In this document: one piece after another, positions 3,177 through 9,432 of the stretch
Layout: every line of letters starts with the position of its first letter
Position numbering within the stretch: position 1 is the stretch's first letter
From: a bacterium
GTDB taxonomy: Bacteria; JAJVIF01; JAGGVT01
DNA length: 11,986 nucleotides
Direction of reading: 5' to 3'
Assembly (NCBI GenBank): GCA_021157815.1
Contig: JAGGVT010000169.1
Location: forward strand, 1-11,986
Translations under genes and position numbers: made by a program
Notes under the pieces: generated by a model
Told to the model about the DNA's origin: nothing
The model's input: the letters and a program-made list of their open reading frames with translations, nothing else
Databases searched by the model: none

Positions 3177-3253
3177 GTGGCTGTAGCTCAGCTGGTTAGA
3201 GCGCCAGGTTGTGGCCCTGGAGGCCGTGGGTTCGACTCCCATCAGCCACCCCA
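3177..3253 (+). tRNA. tRNA-His (anticodon GTG)
   Basis: A complete cloverleaf is visible. The acceptor stem GTGGCTG (3177-3183) pairs with CAGCCAC (3243-3249); discriminator C is 3250 and CCA is encoded at 3251-3253. The D-stem is GCTC/GAGC. The anticodon stem CCAGG/CCTGG holds the loop TTGTGGC, so the anticodon is GTG. The T-stem GTGGG/CCCAT holds TTCGACT. A G precedes the acceptor at 3176 and can pair with C73, which is the G-1 identity element special to tRNA-His. The gene stands alone and is followed after 18 bp by the end of the minus-strand kelch ORF. No second copy of its 3' end, which would mark an integration site, is present in the window. Confidence 0.97.
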
Positions 3254-3271: not shown

Positions 3272-3538
3272 CTAATTGAAAACACCCGCTCTTACTGACG
3301 TGAGTTCCACGGATGAATCTCCACTGCCTGCGGCAAGATAAATTTTGCATTTATAATACGCCGCGGCAGGAGAAAATCCCCTGTCCTCGGGAAGGTCTAT
3401 TTCATGTGTCCATGTTTCAGTAGTTGTGTCAAAAGAGTCAACCCAGTTCCAGGAATTGGCTGCATGCTGGTGGCCACCCATCAAATAGATTTCATTGCCA
3501 ATCGCGACAAATCCCGGACCGCCACGCCAGCGGCTCAT
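3272..3538 (-). CDS. Kelch-repeat fragment coupled to hicB, probable remnant
   Basis: An 88-residue protein with about one and a half kelch motifs. [14 protein letters not shown] (9-22) is a classic kelch strand with the double glycine; the W at 43 follows after D-S-F-D-T-T-T-E-T; a weaker repeat follows at about 54-73 (K-I-Y-L-A-A-G-S-G). A kelch propeller needs several such blades, so alone this cannot fold as the family normally does. There is no signal peptide. Its ATG overlaps the hicB stop as ATGA, with GAGG placed 7 nt upstream, so it should be translated by coupling. That start context is normal for a hicA toxin gene, but no HicA features (short dsRNA-binding fold with a G-S-H-like motif) follow. 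I infer a rearrangement that joined a kelch gene piece to the hicB end; a genuine small protein of unknown role is the alternative. Confidence 0.6.
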
Positions 3539-3753
3539 TTAACTACCTCAATCTGCTGCAGACCAACGAAACGGGGTGATGTATCTTTCAAATCAGCGTT
3601 TTCCTCAAAACACAACTCCAGCACTTCCTTGAGATTTTTTTGGAGTTCATCAAGTGTTTGAGCCTGAGTATGCGCTCCGGGAACACTCGGAACAATTCCC
3701 ACATAGAGATTTGTTTCTGGATCCCACTCTATATATGCCGTAAAAGTTCTCAT
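3535..3753 (-). CDS. hicB: HicB-family (UPF0150) antitoxin-like protein
   Basis: A 72-residue protein of the compact HicB fold: an N-terminal strand pair F-T-A-Y-I-E-W-D (4-11), L-Y-V-G-I-V-P-S-V-P-G-A-H-T (16-29), then T-L-D-E-L-Q-K-N-L-K-E-V-L-E-L (33-47). In hicAB modules HicB binds the HicA mRNA-cleaving toxin and blocks it. This is the short form without a C-terminal ribbon-helix-helix or helix-turn-helix domain, and the length is normal for it. No hicA is found on either side: the downstream ORF is a kelch fragment and upstream is 173 bp without a gene. It may therefore be an orphan antitoxin, or a HicB-like protein with another role. A purine-rich GAGAGTGAG precedes the ATG, and TATAAT (minus strand, 3796-3801) is a possible -10 box without a good -35. 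Confidence 0.85.
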   Translation of the reverse strand: MRTFTAYIEWDPETNLYVGIVPSVPGAHTQAQTLDELQKNLKEVLELCFEENADLKDTSPRFVGLQQIEVVK

Positions 3754-3926: not shown

Positions 3927-6713
3927 TTAATTCTCGATAATCTCCACTTTGCATGAATAAATCGAGCCATTATGTACCGAGTCATCAAGCTGCCATGCCA
4001 GTATCAGGTTATTGCTGTTGTCAACAATTAAATCCGGATCGGATTCCGCGTCAGCAAAATCGCTGATAAGGAAATCCGGGATAAACGTTGCGCCATAGCT
4101 GCCTGAGAGTGCAACGTAGATGTCATCATCGCTTTCGTACGCAATTACAATGATGTCATAACCGAATTTATTTACATAAACAATCGGTGCGTTTAACAGC
4201 GAGCCGGATGATGATGTAACCACAACCGGTGTGCTGAATGATGTCCCCCCGTCAGTGCTTTGCACATAACAAATTTCATCAAGCCCGGATGTGTTGTTGT
4301 GGCGTTCGAATGAAACGTTGATTGTGTCGTTGCTGTCGATGAAAACACCGGGGTCTTTCACTTCGATGTAATCGCTGGATGTGCCATCCCAGATTGTGCC
4401 TTCTGTCCAGCTGTTGCCCATCGAATCGACAGATTTGATACTTTTGATTATGTTCTCATTTACATTATAGTACGCGAGGAACATAATACCTGTCGAGTCC
4501 TCATGGACTGAACGAACATTGCTGATACGCGGGTCGTCATAGGAAACATTGACAGTCATCTGATTCCAACTTTCGTTAATCAAATGCTGGTTGCCACTTC
4601 GACGGCATTCAATCTTATCATAGTCATCACCGAAAGCGTAAAGGTAGCCTGATGTGGCTGAACCGTAGAGTTCGTTGAAATGATCGAACGGAACTTTGTT
4701 ATTCCATGTGTACTCATAAGACCCACCTGTTTTGGCAATGTAGTTACGGTCATCTGGATTGGAGGATACGGAAAAATACGCGTACGAGTCGGTGTCTCCC
4801 TGGTCAGCAGCTACTTTACAAGGCGGGCCAAGACCACTGGTTCCAATCATTCCCTGTGTCCAGTACCAGCTTATGCCATTACTTGAGTGAAGTCCCAGTA
4901 CTGTATCAGATGTTCCACCATAATATTTATAAACATAAGCCATTGCGTATTGCCCGTCATCCTCAAGACAGATACACGGGTCCAGTCTTTGGCCATGATT
5001 TCCAAACGGTGAGGATGTTACCTCTGCCGGTGTACTCAGGAAATTGATATCCAATGTTAATGGATTTACCGTGATTGCAAGAGTGCAAATGTCGCTTGTT
5101 GCTGCCGGAATGCCGTCATCTGTAATTCTCGTCGCGACATCAACAACAATCGGATCAGTTCCTGGATTACTGAAGGGTGTTGTTGTTACCGGAGCGCCGG
5201 TCGTGTTTGAACCGTCAACATCAAAAGTGGTTCCGTCATAATCAAAATCATATTCATAAAGCACGATATTGTCGCCGTCAGGATCACTTGTTCCCGGCCC
5301 GGGGAAAAGGTCGATGGTTGAACCGCTGTAGATTTCTTCCGAAGATGCGTCAAGATCGCATACAGGCGCCTGATTTCCAATAACTTCAATAATGAAAGTC
5401 TGATAGGCCGCAAACTCTGAAATGTTAAAGCAACCCTCTAGTGGATTGGAAGTTGGACCAACCCGTGTGATACCATCCGCGCCGTTCAGAAGTAAAAACT
5501 CATTCTCACCGGCGGGATAACTGTCAGTGATTTTGACCAAACCGCGATGGAATCCCATAACACCTGAAGCATCGTTTGTGAATGTGATTTCATAAGTCAA
5601 TGGATTTAGCGGATCCCGCGGGTCGCCGCCTGTCGGTGTCGGAGATGAAACAACAACAGGTGATGCGGTAACGCTGGAAACCTCTACACTAATCTGCGCA
5701 ATATCGCTTGCCGCGCGCATCTCTCCGAGACCTTCTCCAACAGCGACTCCGTGGTTCATATCAAGTACGCTTACTGTGAGTGTCGCATCGGATGTCGGAA
5801 CGCCCTGTATCAGATTATTGCTTGTGATTTCAATTGAAACTTCACTCGCCGCTTTCTTGTTGAATTGCGGCAGGCGATAAATCGGCGACAATCGCATGTT
5901 CTTGTTGTCAGCGGAAATGCCATACGTGCATCCAATCGCCAGAATGAAATCAACTGATTCGGCGTTTGTAAAATCGAATTCATATTCCCGGATATCCTCA
6001 TCGCCGCCCATCGGCATAACCAGATAACCTGACGGATTCACACAATCAGCGAATCCGTTTGTATTGGACGGGTCGTAATTTCCTGCGGAATAATCGCGGT
6101 AATGAAGAATATAAGGATGCAGAGTTGCATCAGTTGGTAGAATTTCATCAAGCGCATCATCCAGATATCCAGTATAACCTGACGCGTTGAGAAGCCCTCC
6201 TGATGCCACGGATGTTCCAAGTCCGGTGAAACTGTCACTATCGCCGCTTTGCATGACAACGATACCCTCAACGTTAAATACATGAAGGTCCATTCTGTTT
6301 TGCCCTGTTGGCGGTTTGAGTGGGTCGCCGACATCAAACGGGTGTCTGACACCGATATTTGCAACGATATTCCCGTCCGCGTTTAGCTCGATTGAGTGCA
6401 GTTTCACACAATCGGTGCATGGAGCGAGAGTAAGGAAGTTGGTTATATCCACAACTTCGAGAACGTCCTGGCTGCCTGTTTCCCTTAACGGTGTCAGTTC
6501 ACCATTAAGCGATACAGTATCTATGTGTCCGCTGAATACACCAATCAGTCCTGATGAAAAATATGAGTCAGGTTCAGCACTGCCTGCTGGAACCTGATTT
6601 TGTGTTGATATCCCTGAGTTTTCCAAAGTTACAGGATTGCCTCCTGAGGAACATCCAACTGCCATTACCGTGTCAATCAGAATAAGAAGGACAATCAAAA
6701 ATCTTTTTTGCAT
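3927..6713 (-). CDS. Large surface lipoprotein with PKD-like and BNR/sialidase-like regions
   Basis: A 928-residue exported lipoprotein. Residues 1-20 are a signal peptide ending in the lipobox A-V-G-C, with C21 as lipidated residue. Residues about 50-265 form a module with an aromatic R-H-P-F (123-126), D-L-H-V-F (142-146) and V-D-F-I-L-A-I (254-260). Residues about 288-410 look like a beta-sandwich. A PKD/Ig-like domain follows at about 447-550 (N-Q-A-P start, T-S-D-P-D-G-D, Y-E-Y-D-F-D-Y-D-G). The rest (about 560-928) resembles a beta-propeller with BNR-type turns such as S-T-D-G-G-T-S-F (819-826); I see no catalytic sialidase arginine triad, so binding is more likely than hydrolysis. Start: AGAGGTG lies 7 nt before the ATG. 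It has its own promoter candidate and terminator, so it is monocistronic. The first two modules recur in the lipoprotein at 7491-9398. Confidence 0.85.
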   Translation of the reverse strand: MQKRFLIVLLILIDTVMAVGCSSGGNPVTLENSGISTQNQVPAGSAEPDSYFSSGLIGVFSGHIDTVSLNGELTPLRETGSQDVLEVVDITNFLTLAPCTDCVKLHSIELNADGNIVANIGVRHPFDVGDPLKPPTGQNRMDLHVFNVEGIVVMQSGDSDSFTGLGTSVASGGLLNASGYTGYLDDALDEILPTDATLHPYILHYRDYSAGNYDPSNTNGFADCVNPSGYLVMPMGGDEDIREYEFDFTNAESVDFILAIGCTYGISADNKNMRLSPIYRLPQFNKKAASEVSIEITSNNLIQGVPTSDATLTVSVLDMNHGVAVGEGLGEMRAASDIAQISVEVSSVTASPVVVSSPTPTGGDPRDPLNPLTYEITFTNDASGVMGFHRGLVKITDSYPAGENEFLLLNGADGITRVGPTSNPLEGCFNISEFAAYQTFIIEVIGNQAPVCDLDASSEEIYSGSTIDLFPGPGTSDPDGDNIVLYEYDFDYDGTTFDVDGSNTTGAPVTTTPFSNPGTDPIVVDVATRITDDGIPAATSDICTLAITVNPLTLDINFLSTPAEVTSSPFGNHGQRLDPCICLEDDGQYAMAYVYKYYGGTSDTVLGLHSSNGISWYWTQGMIGTSGLGPPCKVAADQGDTDSYAYFSVSSNPDDRNYIAKTGGSYEYTWNNKVPFDHFNELYGSATSGYLYAFGDDYDKIECRRSGNQHLINESWNQMTVNVSYDDPRISNVRSVHEDSTGIMFLAYYNVNENIIKSIKSVDSMGNSWTEGTIWDGTSSDYIEVKDPGVFIDSNDTINVSFERHNNTSGLDEICYVQSTDGGTSFSTPVVVTSSSGSLLNAPIVYVNKFGYDIIVIAYESDDDIYVALSGSYGATFIPDFLISDFADAESDPDLIVDNSNNLILAWQLDDSVHNGSIYSCKVEIIEN

Positions 6714-6806
6714 TACACACCTCTGAATTGTATTTATAAGAAGATATTTACTCTATTGCTTACAGGAAAAACTGATAAACATCATTACCAATTTTACCAA
6801 TAAATT

Positions 6807-6835
6807 AGATTACTAAAAATACCAGTACTTGTCAA
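6807..6835 (-). promoter_or_regulatory. Candidate promoter of the 928-residue lipoprotein gene
   Basis: A perfect TTGACA lies on the minus strand at 6830-6835. At 17 nt spacing the -10 position reads TAATCT (6807-6812), only three of six matches. The -35 is convincing and the -10 weak. The distance to the ATG is 93 nt, leaving an AT-rich leader. Confidence 0.4.
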
Positions 6836-6840
6836 AACTT

Positions 6841-6869
6841 AAAGAAAACCCTACGTTATCCGGAGGGTT
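6841..6869 (-). terminator. Terminator of the lipoprotein / HEAT-like operon
   Basis: On the minus strand AACCCT pairs with AGGGTT (plus-strand 6864-6869 and 6847-6852); after one mismatch two inner C-G pairs leave the loop GATAA. TTCTTT follows directly. It lies 23 nt after the stop of the gene at 6893-7471. The stem is short, so strength is moderate. Confidence 0.6.
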
Positions 6870-6892
6870 AATAATTTCAAGAACAAAAAAAA

Positions 6893-7471
6893 TCAGTTCG
6901 CCTCTATTTGCGGAGGCTTAAGCTCACTGATTATCTTGTCAATATCAGCTTTCAGCCAATCGACTTTCTCCTTGTCTCGAACCGCAATCAGTTTGTCCCT
7001 GACCTTGTTGTACCATATCATCGGCTTTTCGAGATTTTTAAAATCCATTTTTGAAAGGCTCAGCACCGCGAGTTCGCGTTTGGGTGTGTCTTTCAAATCG
7101 GTTTTTTCAAGAAGGAAGTTGATTGCGTCGGGATGAGCAAATCCGCTCAATGACCTTATTACCGTACACGGCATGTCATCGTAATAAATCAGGATATCGG
7201 GAATGTCCTCGGGGTCGCCGACTGAGCCAATGGCAATCAGGCAGAAATCGGTGATAGGCATATCCAAAGTGCCGTCTTCAATTTCATAAAGCACTTCAAA
7301 AGCGGCGTCTCTAAGTTCCATCTTATCCCAATTCTCAGGCGGGAAAATAGAATCCAGCGCATAGCATGACCTGATAAACTTATCTGCAAGATCACTGTAT
7401 GCCATTGCTGACGCTGAGATTAACCCAATGAGCAGAACAGAAATTATGGAAATTGTAAGTAATCTTTTCAT
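6893..7471 (-). CDS. Secreted HEAT-like helical-repeat protein
   Basis: A 192-residue protein with a Sec signal peptide: K-R-L at the start, a hydrophobic core at 4-20 and the cleavage site A-M-A (22-24), so the mature form begins at Y25. The body is a series of amphipathic helix pairs, e.g. D-F-C-L-I-A-I-G-S-V-G-D-P-E-D-I-P (75-91) and C-T-V-I-R-S-L-S-G-F-A-H-P-D-A-I (102-117), with G-D-P and H-P-D turns typical of HEAT repeats. Such folds bind other proteins; no enzymatic motif is seen. It is probably periplasmic. It starts 19 nt after the stop of the protease-like lipoprotein and has its own AAGGAG 10 nt before the ATG, so it is the second gene of that operon and could be a partner or helper of that lipoprotein (inference). 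A terminator follows. Confidence 0.8.
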   Translation of the reverse strand: MKRLLTISIISVLLIGLISASAMAYSDLADKFIRSCYALDSIFPPENWDKMELRDAAFEVLYEIEDGTLDMPITDFCLIAIGSVGDPEDIPDILIYYDDMPCTVIRSLSGFAHPDAINFLLEKTDLKDTPKRELAVLSLSKMDFKNLEKPMIWYNKVRDKLIAVRDKEKVDWLKADIDKIISELKPPQIEAN

Positions 7472-7490
7472 ATCATTAATACTCCTTGCA

Positions 7491-9398
7491 TTAATACTTC
7501 GGGAAATTATTAGGATAATTCATTTGGAACCAGTTGATCCAATTTTCCTGTCCATCAGTAATGTCATATTTGTCCCATGTCCATTCAGGAACTGCGTAAT
7601 ACATCAGGTTGCCCATGTAGCATCCTTCCGGGTCCGCATATAGATATCTTGGAACGCCGGCTGGGAAGCCGCTTGTGTCGCCGCATGGAAGACTGTACAC
7701 ATCAAAAAGATATTCATCAATAAAATAGCCTAAAGCGTGTCCGTGCTCGTGTGCAATAGGAGTTCCCCAGTACCATACAGTCGGACTGTATACGGTGTAA
7801 ACATTATCGACGTTGTGAAGTATTTTGGCTGGATTTGGAACGGCATAAGCGGTTTGAACACCACCATTTAGAACATCAACAAAGTAAAGACTGAGCATAT
7901 CGGTTCCCTTGCCGTAGTTATGATGCATTGCCACGGATTCATCCATGCTGTTCAGAACATAATACTGGCTTGATATTTCAGTTACAGTTCCATCCCAGAC
8001 CAGTTCGTAACCATACTGATTCCAGAAATAATTGGTTTTGGCCATCAATTGGTTTAGAAGACTGAGAGAAAGTTCAACGTCAGGACCGGTTTTTTCCCAG
8101 ATAGGCCAGTTGTAATTTGGATAACCGCTGGTTGCAACATAAATTTCACAAGGAAAATGTGTAATTGCGGGAGTGATATCAGTTGTCAATCTGTAAAATG
8201 CGCTGTCGCCTGTGGAGAAAATCCTGATGTAATATGTGCTTGTTGTGCTTGATGGCAGTTCAATATGATCGGCGAAAGTCAGCATCTGGCCCGGACATAT
8301 TTCTTCATCTTCGCGCGCGTACACAATCATGTAGCATGAGCCTGAGAGTATCTCAAGGTCAATTGTACCGCCTGTAACACCGTTTGGCGGCATAATGAGT
8401 TCATACCAATCCTCAGGATCAACAGTGTCAACACAACCGGCCAGGAGTTCATGCGAGCCAATTGTTGAAGCGGTTGTACAGTTCTGGTTGTCATCCGGCG
8501 TGCATCCGGTTTGTGTAATAGTGATGATTTCATATTCGTACAGTGATGACATGCCTGATGTCGCGACAACAAGGCATTCATATTCCCCAAAGGATGCGCC
8601 TTCGCTGTTGGTCAGTTCAGTTTCCCAGACATCCTCGCCTGAATTGTAAGTGAACTGCGTGTAGTATGTTCCAGTGATAGGAAGCGCGCTGATGCTTACA
8701 CTTGAAATATCATCCTGCCAGTCGTAAACCTTGATCTCAAGATCGCACGTTGAACCCTCATCCTGCAAAAGTTCAGTGTGTGAGAAATCGCTGATTTCAT
8801 AAGGTTCCGCACAGTTTGTGGGCCAGGATACATCAACAGCAAAAACAATAGGGCCAGAGGGCCATGGGACATAAACCTGAAGATTTTCCGTATGCTGTGT
8901 GTGAGCTAAAAACTTATGGAGGGGCTGATCTTTGGCAAATGCCTTAAAAGGATTTCTTGTCAAACCTCCAACACGGTCATAAAGATCAGTCCACGCGTCA
9001 TCGTTGGTTAATAATAATCCTTTATCGTTGGTGAAGAGAATCAGCCGGACATCATAACCAAACAGCGAATAGTTATTTGTAATTGAAAAATTAACGCTGT
9101 AGGTTTGTGTCAGTGGTTCATAGGAAAGCACCTGGATGTTGGTTGAAACCATCGAGGTTAAATTCAAATGGCCTGCCATGTCACGATAGGGAGTTACCGT
9201 TGCTTCAAGGGTGTCGGGATCAATAGTCATTTCCCACATCCCGGCAAGGTTATGCCCTGTTTCATTGGTCATGGTTTTCGGAATACTGGATGAATCCGGG
9301 GATGTTATCGGATCGGATGATGGTGCTTTTGACGAACATCCCATGGTTAAGAACATCACAAATATTAGTGATGCGCACAAGATAATAAACCTATGCAA
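7491..9398 (-). CDS. Lipoprotein with metzincin-like zinc-protease domain (TTG start)
   Basis: A 635-residue lipoprotein counted from TTG; numbering below is from the upstream ATG at 9416 (641 residues). The signal peptide ends with L-T-M-G-C, C27 being lipidated. Residues 55-200 and 205-305 match the first two modules of the lipoprotein at 3927-6713. Residues about 306-412 resemble a PPC domain (D-P-E-D-W-Y at 333-338, T-Y-Y-I-R-I at 394-399). The C-terminal part carries H-E-H-G-H-A-L-G-Y-F-I-D (556-567): HExxHxxGxxD, with H556, H560 and D567 as zinc ligands and E557 as catalytic base; M605 may be the Met-turn. This is the metzincin pattern with Asp as third ligand, as in snapalysin. Start: GGAGGT (minus, 9405-9410) lies inside the ATG reading and exactly 6-7 nt before TTG (9396-9398), whereas the ATG has no ribosome site. 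A surface peptidase is inferred. Confidence 0.85.
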   Translation of the reverse strand: MHRFIILCASLIFVMFLTMGCSSKAPSSDPITSPDSSSIPKTMTNETGHNLAGMWEMTIDPDTLEATVTPYRDMAGHLNLTSMVSTNIQVLSYEPLTQTYSVNFSITNNYSLFGYDVRLILFTNDKGLLLTNDDAWTDLYDRVGGLTRNPFKAFAKDQPLHKFLAHTQHTENLQVYVPWPSGPIVFAVDVSWPTNCAEPYEISDFSHTELLQDEGSTCDLEIKVYDWQDDISSVSISALPITGTYYTQFTYNSGEDVWETELTNSEGASFGEYECLVVATSGMSSLYEYEIITITQTGCTPDDNQNCTTASTIGSHELLAGCVDTVDPEDWYELIMPPNGVTGGTIDLEILSGSCYMIVYAREDEEICPGQMLTFADHIELPSSTTSTYYIRIFSTGDSAFYRLTTDITPAITHFPCEIYVATSGYPNYNWPIWEKTGPDVELSLSLLNQLMAKTNYFWNQYGYELVWDGTVTEISSQYYVLNSMDESVAMHHNYGKGTDMLSLYFVDVLNGGVQTAYAVPNPAKILHNVDNVYTVYSPTVWYWGTPIAHEHGHALGYFIDEYLFDVYSLPCGDTSGFPAGVPRYLYADPEGCYMGNLMYYAVPEWTWDKYDITDGQENWINWFQMNYPNNFPKY

Positions 9399-9403
9399 GA
9401 TAG

Positions 9404-9410
9404 AACCTCC
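9404..9410 (-). promoter_or_regulatory. Ribosome binding site that decides a TTG start
   Basis: GGAGGTT on the minus strand is a near-perfect anti-16S match. It falls on codons 3-5 of the ATG-started frame, so it cannot serve that ATG, but it is ideally spaced for the TTG at 9396-9398. The protein then begins M-H-R-F-I-I-L, a normal lipoprotein signal peptide. Confidence 0.75.
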
Positions 9411-9432
9411 ATGCATGGTTGATGAGATAAAT

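Follow-up and report, generated by a model that had tools for sequence, protein, structure and literature searches.

Gene content of the locus

The window, that is, the whole stretch of 11,986 nucleotides analysed here, is contig 73 of a draft bacterial genome (G000; 3.217 Mb in 221 contigs, 90.9% complete). It carries two predicted lipoprotein genes, P0002 and P0001, which lie in this order on the minus strand with the gene of a 192-aa protein between them. As shown below, they represent the short (class B) and the long (class A) form of one family. Both open reading frames are real, as had been described preliminarily, but the P0002 frame extends to 9416; the end given there (9398) would place its start six codons after the ATG. 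The features are as follows (window coordinates).

3927..6713, minus strand: P0001, class A lipoprotein of 928 aa (open reading frame, and about 75 paralogous G000 loci over residues ~5-550)
6651..6713, minus strand: P0001 signal peptide and lipobox, Cys21 (VG-C-SS; read from the sequence, lipobox pattern)
5913..6560, minus strand: P0001 scaffold module 1, residues ~52-267, beta-sandwich (predicted model, and HHalign to class B module 1)
5379..5843, minus strand: P0001 scaffold module 2, residues ~291-445, beta-sandwich (predicted model and HHalign)
5058..5366, minus strand: P0001 PKD-like domain, residues ~450-552 (paralogue matches reach residue ~550)
3930..5036, minus strand: P0001 cargo, propeller-like, residues ~560-928 (matches other family cargos)
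6893..7471, minus strand: 192-aa protein with signal peptide and a weak HEAT-repeat match (HEAT_2, E 0.0072, under the Pfam cut-off)
7491..9416, minus strand: P0002, class B lipoprotein of 641 aa (open reading frame, and about 43 G000 loci sharing residues ~5-305)
9336..9416, minus strand: P0002 signal peptide and lipobox, Cys27 (TMG-C-SS; by reading)
8823..9254, minus strand: P0002 scaffold module 1, residues ~55-198 (predicted model, and HHalign 99.6% to class A module 1)
8553..8804, minus strand: P0002 scaffold module 2, residues ~205-288 (predicted model, and HHalign 97.8% to class A module 2)
7494..8504, minus strand: P0002 cargo, a PPC-like stretch (~305-420) and a putative zinc peptidase (~421-641) (class A homologue L073:2013-7100)
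7737..7751, minus strand: HEHGH motif of the putative peptidase of P0002, residues 556-560 (HENGH in the class A homologue)

Taken whole, neither P0001 nor P0002 has a Pfam match above the cut-off or an NCBIfam match. In class A, a PKD-like domain often separates the scaffold from the cargo (PKD_4 was found by Pfam in 21 of 73 class A C-termini); the corresponding stretch of P0001 has no Pfam match itself. The propeller-like cargo of P0001 also lacks a Pfam or PDB sequence match of its own, and it matches other cargos of the family, for example that of a class B gene, C153:310-1380 (26% identity over residues 561-913). Neither the PPC-like stretch nor the putative peptidase in the P0002 cargo has a Pfam or PDB sequence match. 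The reading of this protein as a zinc protease rests on its motif, an HExxH kept between relatives (HEHGH in P0002, HENGH in the L073 homologue), and no sequence match to a described peptidase family was found in Pfam or PDB.

The 192-aa gene lies about 20 bases from P0002, between the two family genes, and an operon is possible. Downstream of the family genes, a HicB-like antitoxin frame (PF15919, over the cut-off; 3275-3753, minus strand) overlaps an 88-aa Kelch frame. The latter, apparently a relic of a once longer Kelch protein, adjoins a tRNA-His gene (gtg; 3177-3253, plus strand).

Two N-terminal modules shared by both lipoproteins

The preliminary description held, from reading the two proteins side by side, that they share two N-terminal modules. 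Pairwise BLASTP of P0001 against P0002 finds almost nothing (E 0.022, mostly in the signal peptide), and therefore this by-eye claim was weak. We aligned the scaffolds found in G000 by searches with each protein (alignment A3, class A, 73 rows; A4, class B, 35 rows) and compared the profiles. HHalign joined the two classes at 99.9% over 275 columns (E 1.5e-35) and, when signal peptides were removed, at 99.9% over 243 columns (E 7.6e-32; here and below, E-values are those of single comparisons). As a guard against signal-peptide and generic beta-sandwich similarity, the modules were cut apart along the predicted models. Each proved to be significantly similar to its counterpart only, with module 1 matching module 1 at 99.6% (E 1e-24) and module 2 matching module 2 at 97.8% (E 7.3e-13), while the controls (module 1 against module 2, reversed alignments and the family's own PKD domain) gave 0.1-3.8%. 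With the first 45 residues removed, a class A HMM matched 14 of 39 class B members and a class B HMM 49 of 73 class A members at E < 1e-3, a cut-off at which reversed sequences gave zero matches.

These results confirm that the N-terminal halves of P0001 and P0002 are homologous module by module and belong to one scaffold family. A chance resemblance between beta-sandwich lipoproteins, with which the non-significant pairwise BLASTP would agree, is contradicted by the module-specific HHalign scores and their clean controls and has a negligible probability. Most of the residue-level correspondences noticed by eye hold in the profile alignment: DATLTVSVLD with CDLEIKVYD, YEITFTND with WETELTNS, and VDFILAI with VFAVDVSW are aligned as described. 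DVRLILFTN and DLHVFNVEG fall in the same block with the register off by a few residues, and the supposed common turn (C-V-N-P / V-P-W-P) is not supported, as VPWP is placed elsewhere.

Structure prediction, which had been suggested as a check, gave two confident models, one for the class A scaffold (ma453c37ca7da, 402 aa, pLDDT 88.2, pTM 0.88) and one for class B (m6d26a4aaaece, 246 aa, pLDDT 89.7, pTM 0.82). Compared by strand order, both are tandem beta-sandwiches with the same order, and class A has insertions in modules 1 and 2, those in module 1 comprising the PCxDC, NRxDLHVFD and NADGYT blocks. The scaffold has no sequence match in the PDB. In a PDB fold search, the class B model reached Z 8.5 (3.4 A over 117 residues, to 7dda) and the class A model a best Z of 5.6. 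The general fold is like that of tandem Ig-like beta-sandwiches in the PDB (transglutaminase, GH2, integrin, C3; VP37), at a level of likeness expected of a common arrangement and without a sequence match. These middling scores name no family, and we would not read the models as evidence of a new fold.

A large family of predicted lipoproteins in one genome

A genome-wide profile search revealed a scale that the preliminary description had underestimated. In G000, 139 open reading frames or fragments were matched by the search with both profiles, 130 of them at least 350 aa long. We regard about 130 genes as a fair count, some matches being pieces of broken genes. The coding bases of the family amount to 315,783, or 9.8% of the assembly. 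Several members are split by stops or frameshifts (L090:4099-6342, L101:10305-10904, L138:4315-5404, L204:1-2409 and L106:2618-4486), and these are either decaying copies or assembly errors.

A lipobox, as expected of bacterial lipoproteins (Lgt/LspA substrates), is common in the family: its pattern was found in 110 of the 123 members that are uncut at their 5' side, P0001 included, and the residue following the lipobox cysteine is serine in 102 of these 110. Among the 13 members without the pattern, several have a cysteine in a slightly different context and others start inside the scaffold. Omp85 was detected above the Pfam cut-off both in G000 and in another genome of the same bacterial class (G002), and therefore an outer membrane, and with it a diderm envelope, is expected. 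The surface display that had been proposed is partly supported by these features, which speak for a lipid anchor and an outer membrane; that the proteins face outward is a presumption.

In at least 21 cases, two family genes follow each other on one strand, no more than 600 bases apart. A search of the upstream regions for a shared regulatory motif brought out no more than words resembling a promoter (TATAAT) or a Shine-Dalgarno sequence (GGAGG), and because of this we infer no shared regulator.

Cargo variety and exchange

Behind the scaffold, the family carries a wide variety of C-terminal domains. Among the Pfam families listed for the cargos are PKD, BNR, PQQ, SBBP, LVIVD, Kelch, NHL, fn3 and beta-helix, together with C11 peptidase (four), M23 peptidase, arylsulfotransferase (ASST) and PrcB_C. 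This variety bears on whether the lipoproteins might instead face inward, into the periplasm, with roles such as envelope assembly or BamB-like functions. PQQ_2/BamB-type propellers among the cargos and an AMIN/Amidase_3 envelope gene nearby would be in keeping with such a location; a repertoire of some 130 differing tips that includes peptidase, BNR, Kelch and SBBP domains would be hard to fit into one housekeeping role, and we consider an inward orientation quite improbable.

The preliminary description also held that the cargo is exchangeable, and two kinds of gene pair speak for it, namely closely similar scaffolds whose cargos have no detectable homology, and like cargo on both scaffold classes. 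The first kind is exemplified by two class B genes, L085:2906-5239 and L144:215-2215, whose scaffolds are 87.5% identical over 240 aa. The L144 cargo is a PQQ-type propeller, to which the L085 cargo has no detectable similarity. At the DNA level, the two genes share 83% identity as far as the end of module 2, after which they are unrelated. Within their scaffold DNA lies an exact tract of 125 bases, one clear example of its kind, which looks like the product of recent gene conversion.

The second kind has several examples. The cargos of L080:54-3017 (class A) and L148:458-2797 (class B) show 67% identity (425 aa), while BLAST finds no similarity between the scaffolds that bear them; those of L075:3-2177 (class A) and L144 (class B) show 71% (192 aa), and those of two neighbouring genes in L079, one of each class, 48% (385 aa). 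The P0002 C-terminus has a counterpart in the tail of L073:2013-7100, a class A protein of 1696 aa (39% identity, 349 aa). Among the 81 genes that have a cargo relative, 28 find their best one behind a scaffold of the other class. Conversely, 296 of 334 scaffold pairs with more than 45% identity have no BLAST-detectable cargo homology, an upper bound that overstates non-homology because BLAST misses diverged propellers.

This last point is also what could be said for an account without exchange, in which a single multidomain family has C-termini that simply evolve faster than its N-termini: propellers diverge quickly, BLAST can miss them, and for 19 genes the best cargo match does belong to the nearest scaffold of the same class. 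Rapid divergence alone, however, would hardly leave cargos 67% identical over 425 aa on scaffolds that BLAST cannot relate, or place a PQQ propeller behind one of two scaffolds that are 87.5% identical and a cargo that does not match it behind the other; such pairs contradict this account, and we regard it as very improbable. These gene pairs show that cargo has been exchanged between scaffolds, with the junction at the end of module 2 or, in class A, after the PKD domain.

Many exact repeats between upstream regions and cargos were set aside, as they reflect neighbouring genes that overlap the 200-base upstream window. A dispersed repeat, exact over 50-59 bases between pairs, lies upstream of L075:3-2177, L144:215-2215 and L100:196-3450 and could promote recombination.

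Distribution and expansion of the family

The family had been suspected to be lineage-specific, and its distribution agrees with this. It is present in all four genomes sampled from the same bacterial class, which represent three taxonomic families (G000, G001, G002 and G003), and the remaining 381 of the 385 genomes searched gave no match; viral contigs held no relative either. The class A profile gave 125 matches in G001, at least 150 in G002 and 103 in G003, and the class B profile 182, 44 and 156, respectively. As these matches are stretches, part of which overlap between the two profiles, adding them up would overestimate the number of genes; each of the four genomes has more than 100 of them.

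A tree with 104 tips, built from the class A scaffolds of G000 and G002, has several deep clades in which genes of both genomes occur together, and towards the tips the genes group by genome. The expansion therefore took place partly before the split of the families to which G000 and G002 belong and partly later. Some members in G001 and G003 (L151, L152, L155 and L156) match both the A and the B profile along most of the scaffold, and these intermediates are possibly closer to the ancestral form.

Relation to known systems

BtuG is a beta-propeller. It is also a surface lipoprotein (PMC6143338), and it and the SusD-like proteins, which serve vitamin and glycan uptake in Bacteroides (PMC6143338, PMC10404256), are, like the proteins described here, lipidated proteins of a diderm. 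We found no common sequence family with them, and here, in contrast, one constant scaffold bears unrelated cargos. The scaffold models are nearly all beta, unlike the helical TPR-type SusD fold, and no Pfam SusD match was found in the window's proteins. Polymorphic toxin systems (PMC3482391) likewise join C-terminal domains that vary through recombination to an N-terminal region that stays constant; however, theirs are toxin domains accompanied by immunity genes, behind a secretion module, whereas the cargos here are propellers and peptidases behind a lipoprotein scaffold, and no toxin domain is among the cargo Pfam families listed. Cargo proteins of type IX secretion (PMC5121618) also place many extracellular domains on one common module, which in their case is a C-terminal sorting domain and here is N-terminal, behind the lipobox. 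By analogy, and without claiming membership in either system, we would name BtuG (PMC6143338) as the nearest functional parallel and polymorphic toxins (PMC3482391) as the nearest parallel in evolutionary pattern.

The comparison with SusD raises the question of whether the scaffold may itself be the working part, which would dock a shared partner, as SusD-like proteins dock a transporter, or bind a ligand, with the cargo tuning specificity. Conservation is much stronger in the scaffold than in the cargo, and the near-invariant scaffold residues (PCxDC, HPF and NRxDLHVF in class A; D124, D216 and Q218 in class B) may be more than structural. On the other hand, no partner gene stands beside the family genes of the window, among whose genes there is no TonB-type or SusC-like transporter, and many loci adjoin other members of the family. 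We think this role for the scaffold unlikely.

The scaffold corresponds to no Pfam, NCBIfam or PDB sequence family, and no description of it was found in the open literature, in line with the earlier impression that it is undescribed. A new lipoprotein family of unusual size, with a constant holder and a variable tip, fits what could be checked at the level of sequence. We propose that P0001 and P0002 are, as seems probable, members of such a large, lineage-specific family of predicted outer-membrane lipoproteins. The lipid would anchor the protein in the outer membrane and the two beta-sandwiches would form a membrane-side stalk or dock, from which the cargo, mostly beta-propellers and sometimes peptidases or other enzymes, may bind or cut polymers, glycans, proteins or neighbouring cells. 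The pattern of the genes suggests that tandem duplication would multiply them, and that recombination at the scaffold/cargo junction, together with gene conversion inside the scaffold, would keep the holder alike and let the tips vary. In a diderm bacterium, one undescribed scaffold accounts for about 130 genes and about 10% of the DNA, and such a natural library of one holder and many tips makes the exchange of cargo between envelope proteins measurable, through scaffold versus cargo trees, breakpoints and gene conversion.

Family members in a nanoarchaeal draft genome

In a profile search of genome contigs, the sole match was a metagenome-assembled genome (MAG) labelled 'Nanoarchaeota archaeon' (MM_PC_MetaG.mb.142), which contains three class A members on two contigs.

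L191 (JAHIRU010000001.1) 6995-12389; L192 5394-7373: nanoarchaeal class A members

One of these contigs encodes an archaeal TFB and the other archaeal-type TrpRS and TyrRS (above the NCBIfam cut-offs). The third-position GC of the three members (0.28-0.38) is close to the values of their neighbours (0.21-0.34) and lower than the mean of G000 (0.45). The tree puts them at three distinct positions within the G000 genes, and support for the exact position is low in two cases. No match to Lgt was found in this MAG. Transfer from a relative of G000 appears to be the likeliest origin of these genes. A chimeric assembly is a possible alternative, above all for the second contig, where the family gene lies at the end.

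It has been noted that whether DPANN archaea have bacterial hosts remains to be seen (PMC8204110). One could imagine a repertoire of constant holders and variable tips serving recognition or attachment at the surface throughout this bacterial class, from which at least three paralogues were passed to an episymbiotic nanoarchaeon that uses them in contact with bacteria; we consider this full scenario unlikely. The three nanoarchaeal members may nevertheless help to find out with which bacteria such archaea live together. The sample-set name MM_PC_MetaG occurs in a study of Fennoscandian deep groundwater (PMC8275790).
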